DNA of 64,000 nt from Thermostichus vulcanus str. 'Rupite' (GTDB lineage: Bacteria; Cyanobacteriota; Cyanobacteriia; Thermostichales; Thermostichaceae), in the NCBI RefSeq assembly GCF_022848905.1, contig NZ_JAFIRA010000001.1, positions 62,001-126,000 on the forward strand, in the 5' to 3' direction. Positions within the stretch are counted from its first letter, which is position 1. Each line of letters begins with the position of its first letter. Below the pieces are notes generated by a model that worked only from the letters and a program-made list of their open reading frames with translations, had not been told where the DNA came from and made no database searches. The position numbers were made by a program, and so were the translations under genes. Positions 19,482-31,783 of the stretch are shown here, piece by piece.

Positions 19482-21521
19482 TTAATTCCACACTTTTTCC
19501 ATAAATTCTGTTCTAACCCAAGAGTTCAAATCAATTCCAACAAAGTTTCCACTACCAGGGATCCCTTGTAGCGTCGAGAGGTGACCTTTGAGCCAATCGG
19601 AGCGAATAGTAGCGTCTTGAAAGAAAAGCCCGGTGTGATCGTTCTCCGGACAACCTTTAGGGTAATCAAAGGCTACCTCCTGGGGCATGACATGGGCTAC
19701 CACGTGGGGATCCAGCTGAAGCCACTGCCCCACCAGATTGGGGGCGCTTGGGGTAGTGACATACCAATATTGGGCAGCACGGAGAGCCCGGAGATAAGCC
19801 ACCACAATATCGGGATGGTCTTCGGCAAAAGTCGAACGCACCACCACCCCATGAAAGGCGGGCAAACCAGTTGCATGACCATCGAACAACTGTCTGAATT
19901 GGCCCTGACGGCGGGCAATCTCCCAGAAGGGGGCGAAGTGTCCATAGCCATCTACTACTCGATGGGGCCGTGCAGTGAAGTTAAAGGTGAGATCATCAAT
20001 GTTGGTAAGTTTCACTTTTGAGAGCAAGTTAGCTTCGCCTAAAACTCGGATGATCATGCCATGGGCTGACGATTCCCACGGCACCGCAATGGTTCGGCCA
20101 CGCAAATCCTCAATGCTGCTGAGCTGGGATCCCTGGGGCACAATGACGGCATTGCCTCGCCCGTTAGGGTTGATGGCCACAAAACTGATCAGGTGAGTGG
20201 TCGGCTGCTGCGATCCGGTAAGTTGCAGGGCTGTCAGCAACAGGGGATAGTCCCCCAGCACGCCAAAATCTAGCTGTTCGGAGCGCAGCCTCTGGACGAT
20301 CGGGGAGCCCGAGGTAAAGTCTTGCCATTCAATCTGAATGTGGGTGGAGCTGTAGCGGCCCTCACGGGGTAAAAAGTGCTCCAGCAAGCCCAACTGTCGA
20401 ATCACCAGCCCAGCCGTGGTTGAGTGGATGGTGCTGTTTTGAGTGCCGATGACGATTTTGAGCACCTCAGTCGAGGCACTGCTGTGGGAGCGAAGACCAA
20501 AGGAGGGGGATCGCAGCCGCATAGGCTGAGGGGGGGTGATCAGGGGGGGACGATCCGATGGCGGTGAGGGAACTGCGGGGGGATCCGCGTGGGTGGTGCG
20601 CAGAAACTGCAGAAAAGCTTGAGCGGTCTCGGCGGATCCCTGGGGCATGTCCTGATCAGATTTGGCGGTGGCCGCGGTCAGCCGTCGGGGTTGCAATAGA
20701 TAGAGGTTGGCCTCCAGAGCAAATTCTTGTAAGGGTACCAGCCCCATCAGTTGAGCCTGACGCTCCATGACAAATTCTAGGCTGGAGCCAAAGCCCAGGT
20801 AGCCCCCCTGCATGATGTAGGTTCTCATCAAGCTGAGGGAATCCACCGTCTCAAGGCGTTGAAAGTCCGAAAGCCGGATCCCCACTTCGGCCAAGCGACT
20901 CTCAAATACTAGCCGACTAGGGGATCCCTCCGCCAACACCACCCAAGGTTGGTGGAGGGTTTCTCCGATGCTAAGCCACGTCTGACCCCAGTGAGGGTGT
21001 TCCCCCCTGACAAACGCCCCATAGACGATGGTGTCCACTGCAGTGGCGCTGATCTCGTTGAACTCTCGAAACTCAATATCCGAGATACCTAGATCCACCG
21101 ATGACTCGATGATGGCTCGATAGAGCAGCTCCGTGTTGTCAAACTCAAGGCATTGGGTGGTGAGGTTGGGATGCTGGGAACGGTAGCGAAACAATAGACT
21201 GGGCAACCATTCATCCGCTACTAGAGCGGTGCACCCAATCCGTAAGGTACGATGTTTGCCGGATTTGAGATCCTGAATCCGGTTGATCACCTGCTGCTCC
21301 AAGGCCAACAGTTTGGATCCCTCTTCCACCAGGCATTGGCCCATCTCAGTCAGTTGGATCTTGCGCCCTAATCGGTGAAATAAGGTGACATCCAACTCAG
21401 ACTCTAGGGATTTGATCTTGGCACTGACAGCCGGTTGGGTGAGGTGAAGAGCATCCGCCGCCTCGGTAAAACTCAAATGCCGGGCAACCTCCAAAAATAC
21501 CTTGAGTTGATATAGCTCCAT
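19482..21521 (-). CDS. LysR-type regulator fused to an SsuA/NMT1-like substrate-binding domain
   Basis: Residues 1-60 are a LysR helix-turn-helix (MELYQLKVFLEVARHLSFTE, LTQPAVSAKIKSLESEL), about 90-300 a LysR effector domain, about 312-350 a Pro-rich linker, and about 355-670 an ABC-type substrate-binding domain. That domain matches the binding protein at 28496: GLVIRQLGLLEHFLP against GSVIREMGLLEKHLP, IEWQDFTSGSPI against IEWSSYTSGPPI, and FAEDHPDIVVAYLRAL against FAEKHPEIVVAYLKAL. There is no signal peptide, so the domain is cytosolic. A typical LysR has about 300 residues; this has 679. ATG 21521 is where LysR homology begins. It is probably the sensor-regulator of the divergent operon from 22311. 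Confidence 0.9.
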   Translation of the reverse strand: MELYQLKVFLEVARHLSFTEAADALHLTQPAVSAKIKSLESELDVTLFHRLGRKIQLTEMGQCLVEEGSKLLALEQQVINRIQDLKSGKHRTLRIGCTALVADEWLPSLLFRYRSQHPNLTTQCLEFDNTELLYRAIIESSVDLGISDIEFREFNEISATAVDTIVYGAFVRGEHPHWGQTWLSIGETLHQPWVVLAEGSPSRLVFESRLAEVGIRLSDFQRLETVDSLSLMRTYIMQGGYLGFGSSLEFVMERQAQLMGLVPLQEFALEANLYLLQPRRLTAATAKSDQDMPQGSAETAQAFLQFLRTTHADPPAVPSPPSDRPPLITPPQPMRLRSPSFGLRSHSSASTEVLKIVIGTQNSTIHSTTAGLVIRQLGLLEHFLPREGRYSSTHIQIEWQDFTSGSPIVQRLRSEQLDFGVLGDYPLLLTALQLTGSQQPTTHLISFVAINPNGRGNAVIVPQGSQLSSIEDLRGRTIAVPWESSAHGMIIRVLGEANLLSKVKLTNIDDLTFNFTARPHRVVDGYGHFAPFWEIARRQGQFRQLFDGHATGLPAFHGVVVRSTFAEDHPDIVVAYLRALRAAQYWYVTTPSAPNLVGQWLQLDPHVVAHVMPQEVAFDYPKGCPENDHTGLFFQDATIRSDWLKGHLSTLQGIPGSGNFVGIDLNSWVRTEFMEKVWN

Positions 21522-22310
21522 CGGCTCAGTTCCTGCATTGTCGCCAGGGATTTCATTCTGACATGTCTGGATACATTGTCTATACACCACCATCCCCATG
21601 AGGACTGTTGTAGCGAAAGTACCTCTTCGGAGGATGCCTACAGGGAGCAGGATGACCCATGAGGATAAATCGACATCAGAACATCAGACATAAAAGTCCA
21701 TCCTTGGATCGAATAGCTCTCCCAGGAATGTGATAGATGCGGCTCATTTCCTACTCTGAGATCTTTGCCCTGTCAGGTGTTGACATTGTGCTACGCACCG
21801 CTAACGTGAACGGGAGATTCTAGTACTGTCACCATAAAGCCAGGAGAGCCCTTTGGGATCCCAAATATCTCACTAGAAGACCATATTAATTAACGAAATT
21901 TATCTATTCATCAAATCATCCTCTTGTTCGATCAAACTAGGCCTGACTGTTTTATGTCTAAGATTACAGATGATGTGGATGACTATTTTAGTTTGGCAAT
22001 TGGCGCTTACAAGGTTCTTTATCGACCAAAATAGACACATCATCTATCTTGAGTTCTTAGCTTCCAATGCCGAGATTATCCCAGCAGGCAATCACAGCAA
22101 AACGATTGGTTATGGATCGATTCAGGATCCCTATGATGGATTGATGTGAATGGCCAGAGAATACCTTGATGCATGTGAATAGAGCACATATGATGAACAG
22201 GCGTGGCACGTTGTAGAACCTGTGCTTTCAGTCAGACTGATCGAAAACGGATCGATTATGTCCCAAGATTCTGAATATGTTGAGCAGTTTCATCCGAAAA
22301 GAGGTTCCAA
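21522..22310. promoter_or_regulatory. 789-bp divergent control region between the LysR fusion and the sulfur operon
   Basis: No gene is visible. The stretch is AT-rich and nearly free of the GGGATCCC palindrome common elsewhere. It contains a copy of the GTGCTACGCACCGCTAACG mini-repeat at 21788-21806 and a long imperfect inverted repeat at 21968-22045. LysR proteins usually bind dyads with a T-N11-A core upstream of the divergent target, so operators are expected here. AAGAGG lies just upstream of the start codon at 22311. Confidence 0.55.
21968..22045. repeat. Long imperfect inverted repeat in the divergent region
   Basis: AGATGATGTG at 21968-21977 is exactly complementary to CACATCATCT at 22036-22045. 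Inside them CTATTTT at 21983-21989 pairs with AAAATAG at 22028-22034. The arms enclose about 38 bases. This could be a LysR operator pair, an RNA hairpin in the leader, or the ends of a small vanished element. Confidence 0.6.
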
Positions 22311-24014
22311 ATGGATACACGATGGCTGAAGACTGATGTGTTGGTTGTGGGGGGTGGCACTGCCGGGACGATGGCAGCTATCAAAGCGAAGCAAAGTCAT
22401 CCTGATTGCGAGGTATTGATCCTCGAAAAGGCCAATATCCGCCGTAGTGGGGCCATCGCTATGGGTATGGATGGCGTGAATACGGCGGTCATTCCTGGCA
22501 ATTCTACCCCTGAACAGTATGTCCGTGAGATCACTATTTCTAACGATGGGATTCTCAATCAAAAGGCCGTTTATCAGACCGGCAAACTCGGCTTTGAGGT
22601 GATTCAGGAACTAGAAAGCTGGGGTGTGAAATTCCAGAAGGATCATGAGGGCAACTATGACCTCAAACAGGTGCATCGAGTTGGTAAATATGTGTTGCCG
22701 ATGCCGGAAGGGAAGGATTTGAAAAAGATTCTGGCCCGTCAGGTAAAACGGCATAAAGTGCAGGTGACTAATCGGGTCATGGCCACACGTGTGATCGTGC
22801 AGGAAGGGCGTGCCACCGGGGTGGTAGGTTTCGATGTGCGCAATGGCGACTTTGTGGTGATTCAAGCCAAGGCGGTGGTGTTGTGCACGGGGGCTTGCGG
22901 GCGGCTGGGTCTACCGGCGTCGGGATACCTCTATGGCACCTACGAGAACCCCACCAATGCCGGGGATGGCTACTCGATGGCCTACCATGCTGGAGCTGAA
23001 CTGACCAACATCGAGTGCTTTCAGATCAACCCCCTGATCAAGGACTACAACGGCCCCGCCTGTGCCTATGTGGCCAGCCCCTTCGGGGCCTATACCGCTA
23101 ATGCTGAGGGCTATCGCTTCATCAGCTGTGACTACTGGAGCGGCCAGATGATGCTGGAGGTTTACAAAGAACTCAACTCTGGCAAGGGGCCGATCCAGCT
23201 CAAGATGACCCATCTGGATGAGGACACCATCTCTGAGATTGAGCGAGTCTTGTGGTCGAATGAGCGGCCCAGTCGCGAGCGATTCCATGCCAATCGGGGA
23301 GAGAACTACCGCACCGATGGGGTGGAGATGAACATCTCTGAAATCGGCCTGTGTAGCGGCCACAGTGCCTCTGGGGTGTGGGTGGATGAATGGGCGCGCA
23401 CAACCGTGCCCGGACTCTATGCCGCTGGAGATATGGCCAGCATCCCCCACAACTATATGATTGGGGCGTTTGTCTCTGGTCGCTTGGCTGGGGAGCACGG
23501 CATGGCCTACAGCCAAGACCTTGAGCATGTGGAACCGGATGCAGAGTTTCTGGAGGCCGAAAAGGCCCGTATCTATCAGCCCCTGCAACAGCCGGACGGG
23601 ATCCCTCACACGCAGGTGGAGTATAAACTGCGGCGGCTGGTGAATGACTATCTGCAACCCCCCAAAGTCACCAACAAAATGGAAATTGGTCTGCGGCATT
23701 TTGTCCGTTATCACGATACTCTTGGCCAGATGGGAGCACGGGATCCCCATGAGTTGATGCGGTGTATGGAGGTGCATTTCATCCGCGACTGTGCCGAAAT
23801 GGCAGCGCGGGCCTCTCTCTATCGCAAAGAAAGCCGGTGGGGTCTCTATCACTATCGGGTGGATTATCCCGAGAAAAACAACAGCGAATGGTTCTGCCAC
23901 GTCAACCTGAAAAAGGATCCCAGTGGTGAGATGACCTTGTTTAAGCGGGCGGTGGAGCCTTACATTGTGGATGTGAATATCGAGAAAGAAATCTACGATG
24001 TGGCTGTTCGCTAG
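22311..24014 (+). CDS. APS-reductase-alpha-like flavoprotein (AsfA-like)
   Basis: The 567-residue protein belongs to the fumarate reductase/AprA flavoprotein family: FAD loop VLVVGGGTAGTMAAIKAK near residue 12, acidic strand end LEKANIRRSGAIAMGMDG, the mid-protein FAD contact VLCTGACGRLG, capping-domain GYSMAYHAGAE, and C-terminal TVPGLYAAGDMASIPHNYMI. With the ferredoxin after it this is an AprA-AprB-like pair. Genuine APS reductase belongs to sulfate reducers and sulfur oxidisers; in this setting, next to sulfonate uptake genes and a LysR gene, Pseudomonas AsfA is the better model. I infer a reductive role in releasing sulfite from an organosulfur substrate. AAGAGG precedes the ATG. Confidence 0.8.
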   Translation: MDTRWLKTDVLVVGGGTAGTMAAIKAKQSHPDCEVLILEKANIRRSGAIAMGMDGVNTAVIPGNSTPEQYVREITISNDGILNQKAVYQTGKLGFEVIQELESWGVKFQKDHEGNYDLKQVHRVGKYVLPMPEGKDLKKILARQVKRHKVQVTNRVMATRVIVQEGRATGVVGFDVRNGDFVVIQAKAVVLCTGACGRLGLPASGYLYGTYENPTNAGDGYSMAYHAGAELTNIECFQINPLIKDYNGPACAYVASPFGAYTANAEGYRFISCDYWSGQMMLEVYKELNSGKGPIQLKMTHLDEDTISEIERVLWSNERPSRERFHANRGENYRTDGVEMNISEIGLCSGHSASGVWVDEWARTTVPGLYAAGDMASIPHNYMIGAFVSGRLAGEHGMAYSQDLEHVEPDAEFLEAEKARIYQPLQQPDGIPHTQVEYKLRRLVNDYLQPPKVTNKMEIGLRHFVRYHDTLGQMGARDPHELMRCMEVHFIRDCAEMAARASLYRKESRWGLYHYRVDYPEKNNSEWFCHVNLKKDPSGEMTLFKRAVEPYIVDVNIEKEIYDVAVR

Positions 24015-24129: not shown

Positions 24130-24357
24130 ATGGCCTTAACTACCCAACGTGTGGATGTGCCGGTCATCGTCGATGAGTCAAAATGTCTGGAAAAATGTGT
24201 GGCCTGTATTGAGGTGTGCCCCCTCGATGTGTTGGCGAAAAACCCCGAAACCGGCAAAGCATACATGAAATATGACGAGTGTTGGTTCTGTCTGCCTTGT
24301 GAGAAGGAATGCCCCACCAATGCCATCACTGTTCAGATCCCGTTTTTGCTGCGCTAG
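24130..24357 (+). CDS. 2[4Fe-4S] ferredoxin, AprB/AsfB-like
   Basis: The 75-residue protein carries two cluster motifs: CLEKCVACIEVCP (residues 19-31) and CWFCLPCEKECP (about 53-64). It matches the cluster-binding part of AprB but lacks that protein's C-terminal tail, as a stand-alone ferredoxin would. AAGGAG lies 9 bases before the ATG. It sits 115 bases after the flavoprotein gene and is its likely electron partner. Confidence 0.88.
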   Translation: MALTTQRVDVPVIVDESKCLEKCVACIEVCPLDVLAKNPETGKAYMKYDECWFCLPCEKECPTNAITVQIPFLLR

Positions 24358-24369
24358 GAGGCCCCTGTC

Positions 24370-25362
24370 ATGACCGATGCCAATCTGGATCTCGCCAATT
24401 TAGATCCCGAATTGCACCAGTGGGTGGAGATGTTGGGGGCCGAGGATGTCAACGACCGTCTGGTGGCGGTGAAAAACCTTCAGCATATCGGGAATGAAGA
24501 GGCTATTCCCTTCCTTATTCAAACTCTCAAAGACGACAGCCCTGCGGTGCAGCTGATTTCCATTACTGCCCTCTGGGAGATGGCTAACCCAATTGCTGTG
24601 AAGCCCTTGATGGCCTGCCTCGGATCTCCTCATGCGGATGTGCGGGAGGAGGCACTGTCGGCCCTGAAGGAGCTAGTGGCCCCTGATGATCTGCCGCAGT
24701 TGTTGGTGGAGTTAGAGCAGCTGAATCCCAAGAAACAGCTCAACATCCTGATTTTGCTGCGCAAGATCCATGATGTGCAGGCTTTACCCTACATCTTGCC
24801 CTTCTTTACCTCCGATCGGCCTGAGCTGCGGGAAGCGGCTGTCATCACCCTGCGCTACCTCAATCAGGTGGAGCGATGCCAGCCAGCCCTGGCCCTGATG
24901 GAGGATCCCGATGTAACGGTGGTACGGGCCGCCACCCTGACCTTAGGCCACCTACAAGACCCTGAGGTAATCCCCACCTTGCAGGATGCCTTGACCCGCC
25001 ACCCCGATTGGCAGGTGCGGCGCAATGCGGCTCAGTCCCTGGCACTACACCAGGATCCCGGTGCCATCCCCACCCTGGGGCAAGCTCTGGGGGACGAGCA
25101 CTGGCAGGTGCGCAAGTTTGCGGCTCAAGCCCTGCAAAAGGGAGCCAGTCAGGCGGTTTTGCCGCCTCTGGTGCGGGCATTGTCGGATGAATACTCCGAC
25201 GTGCGCAAAGAAGCCGCCATTGCCCTCGGTCATCTCGGGGATCCCCAGGTGCTCAATGCCCTGCAACAGACCCTCGATGACCCGGATATCGAGGTGCGCA
25301 TCCAGGTGGAGCGGGCCATCAAGCAGCTTCAGGCTGCCACCCAGGGGGCCTCCAATGTTTGA
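24370..25362 (+). CDS. HEAT-repeat protein
   Basis: The 330-residue protein is built almost wholly of HEAT/PBS-lyase-type repeats of about 31 residues, for example DVRKEAAIALGHLGDPQVLN and WQVRRNAAQSLALHQDPGAI. About ten repeats can be counted. There is no signal peptide and no lyase active-site motif, so a scaffold or partner-binding role is most likely. The start is 12 bases after the ferredoxin stop with GGAGG in between, and its end overlaps the next gene by 8 bases. The tight packing between ferredoxin and Fe-S carrier genes suggests it assembles or maturates the flavoprotein-ferredoxin complex (inference). Confidence 0.85.
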   Translation: MTDANLDLANLDPELHQWVEMLGAEDVNDRLVAVKNLQHIGNEEAIPFLIQTLKDDSPAVQLISITALWEMANPIAVKPLMACLGSPHADVREEALSALKELVAPDDLPQLLVELEQLNPKKQLNILILLRKIHDVQALPYILPFFTSDRPELREAAVITLRYLNQVERCQPALALMEDPDVTVVRAATLTLGHLQDPEVIPTLQDALTRHPDWQVRRNAAQSLALHQDPGAIPTLGQALGDEHWQVRKFAAQALQKGASQAVLPPLVRALSDEYSDVRKEAAIALGHLGDPQVLNALQQTLDDPDIEVRIQVERAIKQLQAATQGASNV

Positions 25363-26475: not shown

Positions 26476-27177
26476 ATGGCGGCCTTGATCTGTGGCATCG
26501 CTGGAGTGGTTCGAGGGTTCTCGGGCTTTGGCTCCGCCATGGTGCAAATGCCCGCCCTCACCCCACTCGTCGGCCCCTCGGTTGCCGCCGCCATCGCGGT
26601 AATGTTTGAGGTCATGGCCTCCATTCAGTCGGTGCCCGGTGCTTTTCGGCAGGCCAACTGGCGGGCCATCTTACCTATGGCAGCTGCCGCATTGATTGGG
26701 ATCCCGGTGGGAACGGTCTTTCTGGTCAGTATCGATCCGGTGATCGTTCAGCGCACCATCGCCATCGCCATCCTGATCTCGGTGCTGATCATCGCCTCTG
26801 GTTTTCGCTACAGCGGCCAACCCAATCGAGCCACCTCGCTGGGCACCGGGCTGGTGAGTGGTTTTTTAACGGGCATCGGGGGCATTGGCGGGCCGCCGGT
26901 GGTGATCTATTTCTTCTCGGGATCCAACAAAGCCAGCATTAATCGGGCCAGTTTGATCGCCTACTTTGGCCTCACCCAAGCGGTGACGGTGGTCGCCTAC
27001 TGGTTGCGAGATTTACTCAGTGTTGAGGTGCTGGGGCTGGGCTTGAGTTTGATCCCCGTTTTCTACCTGGGACTCCTGCTGGGCAGTTGGCTATTTGCTC
27101 GCGTCAATGAGCACCTGTTTCGCCGCCTCATCTTGGGATTTTTGGCGTTGGTCGCCGTCATGGGTCTGGTGATCTAA
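26476..27177 (+). CDS. TauE/SafE-family sulfite/sulfonate exporter
   Basis: The 233-residue membrane protein has about seven hydrophobic segments and the two family half-motifs GFSGFGSAMVQMPAL near the N-terminus and GFLTGIGGIGGPPVVIYF at about residues 130-147. TauE/SafE proteins export small sulfur oxyanions or sulfoacetate. It is slightly short of the usual 240-260 residues, so translation may start a few codons earlier. It lies 23 bases after the Fe-S carrier gene and points to sulfite as a product of the pathway. Confidence 0.85.
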   Translation: MAALICGIAGVVRGFSGFGSAMVQMPALTPLVGPSVAAAIAVMFEVMASIQSVPGAFRQANWRAILPMAAAALIGIPVGTVFLVSIDPVIVQRTIAIAILISVLIIASGFRYSGQPNRATSLGTGLVSGFLTGIGGIGGPPVVIYFFSGSNKASINRASLIAYFGLTQAVTVVAYWLRDLLSVEVLGLGLSLIPVFYLGLLLGSWLFARVNEHLFRRLILGFLALVAVMGLVI

Positions 27178-27254
27178 GTCACAAAATCCCTCCTACCTGT
27201 CGGAAATCCTGACCCAACGCTGTGTTGATTGGAGTGTCTTATGGAGTCGCCCCT

Positions 27255-28307
27255 GTGAAACGGTTGCCTCTGAACATAACCCGCCCCCCGATCCCCACCC
27301 AGCTTCCGTCTGCCCATTCCTCCCGCTGGCGGGCCTGGGCCATGCTCCTACCGGGTCTGCTGCTCACCAGTGGCTTGGCGGTTGGGGCAACGCTGATTCA
27401 GGCCACTTGGACCATCTCGCTGCTCAGCCCCTTGTTGCTGGCCATCCTCTTCGGGATCCTGTTGCGCAACACCGTCGGCCTGCCCCCAACCTTTTACCCT
27501 GGGGTGCGATTTTCCCTCAAGAAAATCCTCAAGCTGGCCATTATTCTGCTGGGTCTGCGCCTCAGCTTGGGGGATATCGCCACCCTGGGCCTAACTGGGT
27601 TTGTCATGATCTCAGCAACCTTAGTCAGTACCGTGGCCTTCACCCTCTGGCTGGGATCCCGGCTGGGCATCTCGCAAAAGTTAGTGCATCTGATCGCGGC
27701 GGGCACCTCAATTTGTGGAGCCTCGGCAGTGGTCACCGCCAACAGTGTGGTGGATAGCTCTGAGGAGGAGATGGCCTACGCCATTGGTTTGATCACCGCT
27801 CTGGGTACCGTCGCGATGTTGCTCTACCCATTGGTGCCGGAGCTGTTGCACCTGTCCTCGTTATCCTATGGCATCTGGTGTGGGGCCTCCATCCATGAGG
27901 TAGCCCAGGTGATCGCGGCATCCTTTCAACACGATCTGGTAAGCGGCGAGTTTGCCACCCTATCCAAACTAAGTCGGGTGCTGTATTTGGCCCCCTTAAC
28001 GGTCGTGCTCAGCCTTTTGACCCAGCGGAACCAACCCACAGGCTCCTCTCTTTATATTCCGTGGTTTGTGGTCATCTTTTTGGGGGTGGTGGTCGTCAAT
28101 AGCCTGGGACTGCTGCCCAGGGATCTGACAGATGGGATCCTGAGCATCAACAAGCTCTTGTTGGGTATCTCGCTGGCGGGAATGGGCCTAGAGACCGACC
28201 TCAAGAAAATTCGTACGCTGGGGATTCAGCCCCTCTACCTTGCCATAGCCTCATGGCTTTTTCTAGCTGTCTCAAGTCTGGTTCTGGTGAAACAGTTCTA
28301 TTCCTAA
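27255..28307 (+). CDS. YeiH/UPF0324-family putative sulfite (sulfate) exporter
   Basis: The 350-residue protein has about ten hydrophobic segments and the YeiH signatures LAILFGILLRNTVGLPP, KILKLAIILLGLRLSLGDI, AAGTSICGASAVVTANSVV, GASIHEVAQVIAAS and LLLGISLAGMGLETDL. GTG 27255 has GGAG 9 bases upstream; an upstream GTG at 27222 is possible. YeiH relatives are next to sulfur-metabolism regulators in many genomes, but their transport substrate is not firmly established. It is unrelated to the TauE-type exporter just before it. Confidence 0.85.
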   Translation: MKRLPLNITRPPIPTQLPSAHSSRWRAWAMLLPGLLLTSGLAVGATLIQATWTISLLSPLLLAILFGILLRNTVGLPPTFYPGVRFSLKKILKLAIILLGLRLSLGDIATLGLTGFVMISATLVSTVAFTLWLGSRLGISQKLVHLIAAGTSICGASAVVTANSVVDSSEEEMAYAIGLITALGTVAMLLYPLVPELLHLSSLSYGIWCGASIHEVAQVIAASFQHDLVSGEFATLSKLSRVLYLAPLTVVLSLLTQRNQPTGSSLYIPWFVVIFLGVVVVNSLGLLPRDLTDGILSINKLLLGISLAGMGLETDLKKIRTLGIQPLYLAIASWLFLAVSSLVLVKQFYS

Positions 28308-28495: not shown

Positions 28496-29947
28496 ATGAA
28501 GATAACCCGTCAATGGTTTCTCAAGGCTTCCACTAGTTTGCTGATTTTTTCAACACTTTTGCTCGGTAAAGAAGCTTCTAGTCAGCAGCGAATTCGTATC
28601 TCGATTGCCACTCAAGATCAAGTAATCAACACCTCCACCGGCGGTTCTGTGATCCGAGAAATGGGACTGTTGGAGAAGCATCTGCCCACCACTGGTGACT
28701 ACGAGGGCGTCACCTACGACATCGAGTGGTCAAGCTATACTTCTGGCCCCCCCATCACCAACCAAATGTTGGCTGGAAACGTTGACATCGGCATGATGGG
28801 GGATTTCCCTGCCGTCATCAACATGACCACGTTTCGGCGGGAATCGGACGTCGAGACCATCTTTATTGCCACCCTGGCCTACAGTGCCACGGGAGCCGGT
28901 AATGCGGTCATGGTACCGGCAGATAGCTCCGCCACTTCTCTGGCTGATCTAAGGGGAGCCGAGGTATCCGTGCCCTTTGGCTCTGCGGCCCACGGAATGC
29001 TGCTCAAGGCTTTTCAGGATATCGGCATCGATCCGGAAACCGAGGTCACCCTGATCAGTCAGGCGCCGGAGGTAGGGGGCACCAGCTTGCGTACCAACCA
29101 AATTGATGCCCACGCTAACTTCGTGCCGTTCGGGGAGCTGTTCCCCTTCCGGGGGTTTGCCCGCAAGATTTTTGATGGGGCCCAGACCAATGTGCCCACT
29201 CTACATGGGGTACTGGTGCGCTCTGATTTTGCTGAAAAACACCCCGAGATCGTGGTGGCTTACCTCAAGGCCCTATTGGAGGCCAATCAACTATTCCAAG
29301 TGAATCCAGAACTGGTGTCAGCCGATATCGAGAAGTGGTCCAGTATCGAGAAAGAGGTAGTCTACATGTTCCTTGGTCCCTCCGGATTGCAGACTATTGA
29401 TCCCACCATTCGCGAGATTCACCTGCAAAGCCTCGAAAATAGCATCACTGTGCTTCGGGCGCTAGGCCGAGTGGATGAGAATATTGATCCGTCTTCGGTG
29501 CGGGACTGGGTGGATGACAGCTTTTTGCGGATGGCAATGGAGGAGATGAGCCTCGACTACGACGAGGTAGTGGCGACTAGCGAAAACTATGTCCTCGCAG
29601 GCGAGGATGACTTGACCGGCGAGCCGATTGAGGATCCCTCGATGGCAGCGCAACTGTGGGTAGGAGGTGAGGAGCTAACCCGCAATTTTGCCTCCATCAA
29701 GAACATGCTGGCTAAGCTTCAGGAATTGCGCGCCGATGGCCAGGCGGCGCGGGTGATCTTTGTGCACGATCGCAACAACGGCTGGAAACTATTTGCAGAA
29801 AATTCTTTCTTTGTGCAGAATGGCGAAGAAATCTCTGCTTTCTTACTGGAAGAAGATGCTCGGGCTTTTGCCAATGAAGTGGGATCTTCTGTGATGGGCT
29901 TTCGTGCCTTACAACAGTCTCAACAGGCAATGGCTTTGCCTCAATAG
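28496..29947 (+). CDS. ABC substrate-binding protein (SsuA/NMT1-like) with C-terminal NosL-like region
   Basis: Residues 1-28 form a signal peptide. The binding core (about 32-330) has STGGSVIREMGLLEKHLP, IEWSSYTSGPPI, VDIGMMGDFPAVI, the anion-binding loop SVPFGSAAHGMLL and THGV-like PTLHGVLVRSDFAEKHPEIV. It is a NitT/TauT-type binding protein for sulfonates or a similar anion. Unusually, about 90 residues follow the normal end, and residues about 420-475 (WKLFAENSFFVQNGEEISAF, LEEDARAFANEVGS) look like the C-terminal part of NosL. ATG 28496 starts the signal peptide. First gene of the uptake set; GGATCC sites are sparse from here on. Confidence 0.88.
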   Translation: MKITRQWFLKASTSLLIFSTLLLGKEASSQQRIRISIATQDQVINTSTGGSVIREMGLLEKHLPTTGDYEGVTYDIEWSSYTSGPPITNQMLAGNVDIGMMGDFPAVINMTTFRRESDVETIFIATLAYSATGAGNAVMVPADSSATSLADLRGAEVSVPFGSAAHGMLLKAFQDIGIDPETEVTLISQAPEVGGTSLRTNQIDAHANFVPFGELFPFRGFARKIFDGAQTNVPTLHGVLVRSDFAEKHPEIVVAYLKALLEANQLFQVNPELVSADIEKWSSIEKEVVYMFLGPSGLQTIDPTIREIHLQSLENSITVLRALGRVDENIDPSSVRDWVDDSFLRMAMEEMSLDYDEVVATSENYVLAGEDDLTGEPIEDPSMAAQLWVGGEELTRNFASIKNMLAKLQELRADGQAARVIFVHDRNNGWKLFAENSFFVQNGEEISAFLLEEDARAFANEVGSSVMGFRALQQSQQAMALPQ

Positions 29948-29989
29948 ATACGAATTCCTGTTTGTTCTTGACCTGTTTTGGAGTATCTG

Positions 29990-30880
29990 ATGACAATGCC
30001 ACAGTCCAAGTCTCCCCTGCTCCAATGGTATAAAGGGGTTGCCTATCGCATCGACTATTTGACTAAGCAAAAGCAATCCTTGTATCTTCATCCTCCAAAC
30101 AAGTTTCTGCCTCTATGGGAGAATAGGAAATTTCGACGTGTGCTGTCATTAATTCTTTTTTTTGGGATTTGGCAGATTCTGTCCACAATTAATTTCAACT
30201 TCTTCGTTAATTTTCGCTTTGTTCCCTCTCCTGTACAGGTTTTTCAAGCTACTATCCACTTTCTATCTCGAAATCCCTGGCTGCATTTTAAGGCCAGTAT
30301 TAGTCGGGTATTGATTGGTTATTTTGTTGCCGTTGGACTGGGATGTGGTTTAGGGATCCTGATTGGCTGGTTCCAGAAGATAGAAGATTTGATTTTCATT
30401 CCATTGGAGATTCTCCGTCCTATTCCAGCCGTATCTTGGATCCCGTTGGCAATTTTAATGTTTCCCAATGCAGAAACAGGCATGATTTACATCACGTTTG
30501 TGGGAGCTTTTTTCCCGATTTTGATCAGCACAATTCGCGGTGTGGAGGGTACAGACCCGCTGCTTTTACGCGTCGGTCAATCCTTGGGAGCCAAGCAGCA
30601 TCACATCTTCACCGATATCGTGATTCCAGGGGCGCTGCCCAGCATTGCCAGCGGCCTAGTGATCGGCATGGGAAACTCTTGGTTTTGTCTGGTCACAGCT
30701 GAGATCTTGGCAGGTCGCTATGGGGTAGGCTATGTCACCTGGGAATCCTATGTCACCTCTCACTACCCACCGATTGTAATGGGAATGTTGATGATTGGCT
30801 TTATGGGAGCCTTCAGCGCGTGGGGGGTAGATCAACTGACTCGATTGCTAATGCCCTGGAGAGTTCAACGGGTAAAATAG
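29990..30880 (+). CDS. ABC permease, SsuC/TauC type
   Basis: The 296-residue inner-membrane permease has about six hydrophobic segments, the TauC-like IPAVSWIPLAILMFP and the EAA-type loop QSLGAKQHHIFTDIVIPGALP that contacts the ATPase. The start ATG 29990 has TGGAG 7 bases upstream. A longer N-terminal cytoplasmic stretch (about 55 residues) precedes the first membrane segment. The gene is visibly AT-richer than the housekeeping genes around the locus, a sign of later acquisition. Confidence 0.92.
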   Translation: MTMPQSKSPLLQWYKGVAYRIDYLTKQKQSLYLHPPNKFLPLWENRKFRRVLSLILFFGIWQILSTINFNFFVNFRFVPSPVQVFQATIHFLSRNPWLHFKASISRVLIGYFVAVGLGCGLGILIGWFQKIEDLIFIPLEILRPIPAVSWIPLAILMFPNAETGMIYITFVGAFFPILISTIRGVEGTDPLLLRVGQSLGAKQHHIFTDIVIPGALPSIASGLVIGMGNSWFCLVTAEILAGRYGVGYVTWESYVTSHYPPIVMGMLMIGFMGAFSAWGVDQLTRLLMPWRVQRVK

Positions 30881-30964
30881 AATGTAAGAATGCACCTTTT
30901 TGATTCTGATTGGATATTGCCTCAATTTGAGTGAAGACTGGAAATTCTGTTGAGATCAATCAAT

Positions 30965-31783
30965 ATGACTAACTTACTCGCCACACATACCTCTACAATC
31001 AAAAAAGGATATGTGGAGGTTGAAAACCTGAGCATGACATTTTCCCGTCGGGGAGAAGCTATTCGTGTTTTTGATTCTATTAATTTCAATCTGGATCCGG
31101 GAGAATTCGTCTGTTTATTAGGGCCATCTGGTTGTGGAAAGTCAACTGTGCTGAATGTGATTGCCGGTTTTATTAAGCCTACTAGTGGCTACGTTTTTAT
31201 CAATAAACGTCATGTGGATACACCTGGATCGGATCGGGGATTTGTTTTTCAGCAATATTCGCTTCTGCCTTGGAAAACCACCTTCCAAAATGTCGAATTT
31301 GGTCTAAAAATTAGAGGTATACCCAAAAAAGAGCGGACAGATTTAGTTAATGACTTTTTGGAGCGAGTTGGTCTCTACAGATACCGGAATGCTTTCCCTC
31401 ATCAGTTATCAGGGGGAATGCAGCAGCGGGCCAGCATCGTCCGTGCCCTAGTGAATTCTCCCTCGGTTCTGCTCATGGATGAGCCATTTGCTGCCCTTGA
31501 TGCCCAAACTCGTCACATGATGCAGGAGTTGTTGTTGGATGTTTGGCAGGAACTTCGACCTACCATCATTTTTGTTACCCATGATATTGATGAAGCAGTA
31601 TTTTTGAGTGACCGGATTCTTGTGATGGGGACTAACCCAGGATGCATCAAAGCTGAGGTTTCGGTTGCGTTGCCTCGACCCCGGCATATTGATATCAAGC
31701 TAACTGAAGATTTTTTGTCTCTAAATCGTCAGGTCTTTGACTTGATCCGAGAAGAAACACTTAAGAATATGATCAACCTTTAG
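30965..31783 (+). CDS. ABC ATPase, SsuB/TauB type
   Basis: The 272-residue ATPase has Walker A GPSGCGKSTVLNVIAG, Q-loop FVFQQYSLLPWKT, signature LSGGMQQRASIVRAL, Walker B VLLMDEPFAALD and switch His VTHDIDEA: the NitT/TauT family pattern. ATG 30965 is preferred; TTG 30950 is in frame. With the permease and binding protein it completes a sulfonate-type importer. AT-rich like the permease. The 235 bases after it contain no clear terminator. Confidence 0.93.
   Translation: MTNLLATHTSTIKKGYVEVENLSMTFSRRGEAIRVFDSINFNLDPGEFVCLLGPSGCGKSTVLNVIAGFIKPTSGYVFINKRHVDTPGSDRGFVFQQYSLLPWKTTFQNVEFGLKIRGIPKKERTDLVNDFLERVGLYRYRNAFPHQLSGGMQQRASIVRALVNSPSVLLMDEPFAALDAQTRHMMQELLLDVWQELRPTIIFVTHDIDEAVFLSDRILVMGTNPGCIKAEVSVALPRPRHIDIKLTEDFLSLNRQVFDLIREETLKNMINL

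Follow-up and report, generated by a model that had tools for sequence, protein, structure and literature searches.

A NosL-fold domain lacking the NosL copper ligands is fused to an SsuA/TauA-type ABC substrate-binding protein of Thermostichus vulcanus

A gene of Thermostichus vulcanus str. 'Rupite' at positions 28496–29947 (+ strand) of the analysed window, a 64,000-nucleotide stretch of contig NZ_JAFIRA010000001.1, encodes a 483 aa protein (ATG at 28496, stop codon ending at 29947). A first-pass annotation of the sequence had noticed that this protein carries an extra NosL-like region after an SsuA-like domain. The locus thus raises the question of whether the appended region is a true relative of the copper protein NosL, whether it can still bind metal and what it does on a substrate-binding protein. 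The protein is divided as follows:

28496–28588, + strand: putative signal sequence (residues ~1–31), without a lipobox Cys and with low pLDDT for residues 1–27
28589–29527, + strand: SsuA/TauA-type substrate-binding core (residues ~32–344), assigned from TIGR01728, PDB 6ssy and fold Z-scores
29588–29932, + strand: NosL-fold domain (residues ~365–479) without the NosL copper ligands, assigned from sequence profiles and fold

The protein is an SsuA/TauA-type ABC substrate-binding protein. A Pfam search with the whole sequence matched NMT1_2 (3.5e-10, residues 55–271), the PDB sequence match of the core is TauA 6ssy (3.6e-17), and the predicted core fold gives Z-scores of 29.2 against SsuA 2x26 and 28.6 against TauA 6ssy. 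As with SsuA and TauA, a single permease and an ATPase adjoin the binding protein. Unlike them, it has about 139 extra residues and scores below the NCBIfam cut-offs for aliphatic sulfonates (TIGR01728, 6e-30, 104 bits versus 163.5) and taurine (TIGR01729, 86 bits versus 304). Judging from these relatives and the neighbouring genes, the substrate would be a sulfonate or another organosulfur anion. The length of the extension follows from the end of the core near residue 344; it had earlier been put at about 90 residues. The full-length model, in which the core and the C-terminal domain were folded together, has a pTM of 0.87.

NosL is an example of a lipoprotein, and most orthologs of the T. 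vulcanus protein are lipoproteins too, a Cys being present in the lipobox column (typically ..ACS..) in 41 of 44. The T. vulcanus protein has no Cys in that column, which makes it probably not lipid-anchored, and its whole sequence is Cys-free.

In the Pfam search, the NosL family (PF05573) matched residues 383–474 of the whole protein with an E-value of 0.0096; for the C-terminal 140 residues alone the value was 3.1e-4, with 21.5 bits, just below the curated cut-off of 24. No NCBIfam family accounts for the C-terminal domain. Relatives were taken from public genomes (48 loci), and 43 C-terminal regions were aligned. All 43 match PF05573, the best with 9.7e-9, and each family other than NosL matches at most seven. 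Two of the nine orthologs tested pass the NosL cut-off at full length (L013, 27.8 bits; L025, 25.5 bits), so the architecture may already appear in domain tables compiled automatically. A profile of the C-terminal region, searched against 177,635 PDB sequences, retrieved NosL chains only, in the order 7og7 (3.7e-7), NosL of the NosDFYL complex and 2hpu. In the reverse direction, the same profile finds genuine betaproteobacterial NosL genes with E-values near 1e-5.

Since binding-core matches dominated the full-length fold search, the C-terminal domain was folded separately; this model begins at residue 344 and has a pLDDT of 86. Against NosL 7og7, it gives a Foldseek E-value of 1.9e-5 and a Z-score of 14.3 over 111 residues (model residues 22–136), and both beta-beta-alpha-beta halves of the NosL fold are present. 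Z-scores are 12.0–12.8 against the other X-ray and cryo-EM structures of NosL, 7.8 against the NMR model 2hpu, up to 8.7 against MerB (3f0o) and at most 5.1 against unrelated folds. The MerB matches are explained by the NosL–MerB likeness published earlier, in a reference listed in PMC7558416. The organomercurial lyase MerB is alike in general fold; a MerB-like enzyme is ruled out here, since the catalytic cysteines are missing and a Cys-free protein leaves no MerB chemistry.

By sequence and fold, the C-terminal domain is a true NosL relative and a complete copy of the fold. The profile and fold comparisons proposed at the outset thus both return NosL, and the extra NosL-like region is borne out by Pfam, the PDB profile search and the predicted structure. 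The NosL pattern had been placed at residues 420–475, which correctly marks the second half of the domain and misses the first. The T. vulcanus sequence alone, falling short of the Pfam cut-off, would be compatible with a chance resemblance or a shared short motif. That explanation is rejected, with a practically negligible probability, because the match is family-wide, reciprocal and structural.

The copper ligands of NosL, as discussed in PMC6530538, include the Met of the CXM motif and a second invariant Met. The corresponding columns were compared in a joint alignment of 51 C-terminal domains of the fusion family and 16 genuine NosL proteins. The CXM Met is present in 16/16 NosL proteins and 0/51 fused domains, which mostly have Glu or Gln instead; the CXM Cys column holds Thr in 42 of the fused domains and Cys in six. 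The second Met is likewise found in all the NosL proteins and none of the fused domains (gap in 45), the loop at its place being shortened. A search of 55 fused domains detected no CXM motif anywhere in the domain. With both Met ligands missing and the T. vulcanus protein free of Cys, the NosL-type copper site is absent from the C-terminal domain, and the proposal of a metal-binding appendix is not supported.

Trp388, Asp425 and Lys431 are each invariant in the 51 fused domains. Trp388 and Lys431 are specific to the fusion family and absent from NosL, and Asp425 is common to both. His424 is replaced by Phe or Tyr in nine of the 51. The mean column identity of the C-terminal alignment is 55% across several bacterial phyla.

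Cys occurs in just seven of the 55 fused domains (L046–L050, L078 and L099), all of them beta- or gammaproteobacterial; each has two, one at the CXM Cys position. These domains may possess a disulfide or a thiol site, and perhaps some thiol or metal chemistry. In a separate frame, L091 1264–2874 (+), a genuine NosL domain of the CXM type is extended by about 330 residues of unassigned type; a thioredoxin-like frame and another NosL-like one lie nearby.

Orthologs of the fusion protein are found in many cyanobacterial families, Azoarcus, Limnobacter, other beta- and gammaproteobacteria, alphaproteobacteria and Myxococcota. Plasmid copies are present in cyanobacteria, Sinorhizobium, Rhizobium, Mesorhizobium, Bradyrhizobium, Methylocystis and Paraburkholderia; those of cyanobacteria and rhizobia are annotated merely as ABC transporter substrate-binding proteins. 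The spread is patchy: of 386 cyanobacterial genomes, six are clear cases, and the fusion is missing from two genomes sampled within the host's genus. More divergent fusions (L079–L081) occur in the class of Limnobacter, and the viral contigs searched contained no relative. The first-pass annotation had considered the architecture new. In the literature library searched, no paper describes such a fusion, which agrees with that view as far as these publications are concerned; the architecture itself is widespread. In the tree, 55 fused domains lie on one side of a single branch separating them from NosL (support 100/96), the sequences having been selected by similarity. The fusion is old, and a single origin is the simplest reading of the tree for sequences selected in this way.

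The binding protein gene is accompanied by the following genes:

19482–21599, − strand: LysR-type regulator with an extra binding-protein domain without the NosL part (profile and sequence comparison)
22311–24014, + strand: APS/PAPS-reductase-like flavoprotein, a conserved neighbour (PRK08275 equivalog, 1009 bits)
24130–24357, + strand: small ferredoxin-like protein (annotated as 'ferredoxin family protein' in plasmids)
24370–25362, + strand: HEAT-repeat protein of the module, conserved (PF13646, 1.9e-52)
26476–27177, + strand: TauE/SafE-type exporter, which occurs in L098 as well (PF01925, 7.8e-29)
27222–28307, + strand: YeiH-family putative sulfate exporter (PF03601, 5.6e-80)
29978–30880, + strand: ABC permease of the same transporter, beside the binding protein in 42 loci (PF00528, 9e-16)
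30950–31783, + strand: ABC ATPase of the same transporter, conserved in 43 loci (PF00005, 2.8e-32)

The permease and ATPase genes adjoin that of the binding protein in nearly all loci and, wherever the flanks are long enough, the fused domain is always found in a transporter context. The best NCBIfam matches of the permease and ATPase are SaoP and SaoA (NF040733 and NF040729) of the SAO (Sec-assisted organometallic) system. The scores are far below the cut-offs of these models (permease, 123 versus 295 bits; ATPase, 270 versus 360), and a search of the host genome with the SaoB profile (NF040727) gave no match; the identity of an SAO transporter is therefore rejected.

The flavoprotein, ferredoxin and HEAT-repeat genes recur in cyanobacteria, alpha-, beta- and gammaproteobacteria and Myxococcota and accompany even L101 and L102, two divergent fusions; some cyanobacterial loci additionally contain Mrp, TauE or YeiH. 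Among the cyanobacteria with the module is a laboratory organism, Leptolyngbya sp. BL0902. The occurrence of the same fusion in several bacterial groups, beside the same sulfur-type enzyme genes, indicates a real, conserved add-on. The flavoprotein is well above the PRK08275 cut-off (587 bits) and below those of the AprA models of NCBIfam. Its nearest PDB match is the alpha subunit of PAPS reductase from Methanothermococcus (8a8o, 1.5e-69; PMC10322725), followed by AprA. The small ferredoxin-like protein is the probable partner of the flavoprotein. LLM flavin oxidoreductases are encoded near the Sinorhizobium (S. fredii) locus. On a Paraburkholderia plasmid (L099, 9932–15567), genes for an arylsulfatase and a formylglycine-generating enzyme come after those of the same transporter, which hints at sulfate esters as substrate; the flavoprotein, ferredoxin and HEAT-repeat genes are not nearby. 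Together, TauE and YeiH, the arylsulfatase, the LLM oxidoreductases and the kinship of the flavoprotein point to a sulfur context. A literature search found no paper on a module of transporter, flavoprotein, ferredoxin and HEAT-repeat protein.

Compared with NosL (PF05573; 7og7, 7osf, 2hpu), the fused domain is alike in fold, in its profile match and in working beside an ABC-type complex; PDB entries 7osf–7osj and 7znq contain NosL on an ABC transporter. In contrast to NosL, it sits behind a substrate-binding protein, and its neighbours are sulfur-type and transport genes, with no nitrous-oxide reductase genes in the loci examined. A search of the host genome with the nosZ profile PF18764 gave no match, as did the control.

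The preferred reading, in which we place as much belief as doubt, is that of an organosulfur uptake protein whose NosL-fold domain serves as a copper-free docking or ligand-closing module. The periplasmic binding protein of the ABC importer would take up a sulfonate or another organosulfur anion, which, judging from the protein families encoded nearby, may then be used in a redox reaction in the cytoplasm; the APS/PAPS-reductase-like flavoprotein and the ferredoxin are encoded alongside. The role proposed for the NosL-fold domain is permanent docking or closing, with contacts possibly made by Trp388, Lys431 and the shared Asp425 to the lobes of the binding core, to the permease or to a partner delivering the substrate. 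As NosL itself sits on the ABC-type complex NosDFYL, the fold probably keeps a role in protein contact.

The main rival is a second ligand site, where Trp388, Asp425 and Lys431 bind an anion or a portion of the substrate, which is then passed to, or held over, the cleft. The family-specific Trp388 and Lys431 are consistent with such a site, as is the related fold of MerB, an enzyme handling small organic ligands. However, the invariant residues fit docking equally well, and we regard a second site as possible, if rather unlikely. The single change on the tree that parts the fused domains from NosL would also suit a purely structural leftover of a single fusion, retained only to stabilise the protein or a dimer. 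Such an origin is improbable as the whole explanation, since a mere relic would hardly be expected to show this degree of column identity and strictly invariant polar residues over several phyla.

Binding of copper or another metal through different ligands might be expected from the NosL fold, and from the beta- and gammaproteobacterial orthologs with exactly two Cys. Against it stand the loss of both Met ligands in all 51 aligned domains, the Cys-free T. vulcanus sequence and the variable His424. We consider such a site decidedly improbable, and metal binding by the T. vulcanus protein itself unlikely. The first-pass annotation had suggested a metal, a thiol-type ligand or docking to a partner; docking or another ligand is the better half of that guess.

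The fusion shows a copper-chaperone fold put to new use: having lost its copper site, it is permanently built into the binding protein of a transporter. A wider proposal, which is tentative and more easily doubted than believed, is that this fold now works, metal-free, as a docking head or as a second site for the substrate, and that the importer is the entry of an undescribed assimilation module. That module may comprise the transporter, the APS/PAPS-reductase-like flavoprotein, the ferredoxin and the HEAT-repeat protein in cyanobacteria, rhizobia, betaproteobacteria and myxobacteria. The sulfur-type gene module is conserved across several bacterial phyla, and the fusion provides a handle for finding it and for learning what it brings into the cell.

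The LysR-type regulator has a binding-protein domain that is 35% identical to the transporter's binding protein and matches it only as far as residue ~289–350. A search of the regulator for NosL gave no match, in agreement with the earlier remark that its binding domain lacks the appendix. LysR regulators with such an appendix-free binding-protein domain are found beside the module in many cyanobacteria and probably sense the same ligand as the transporter.
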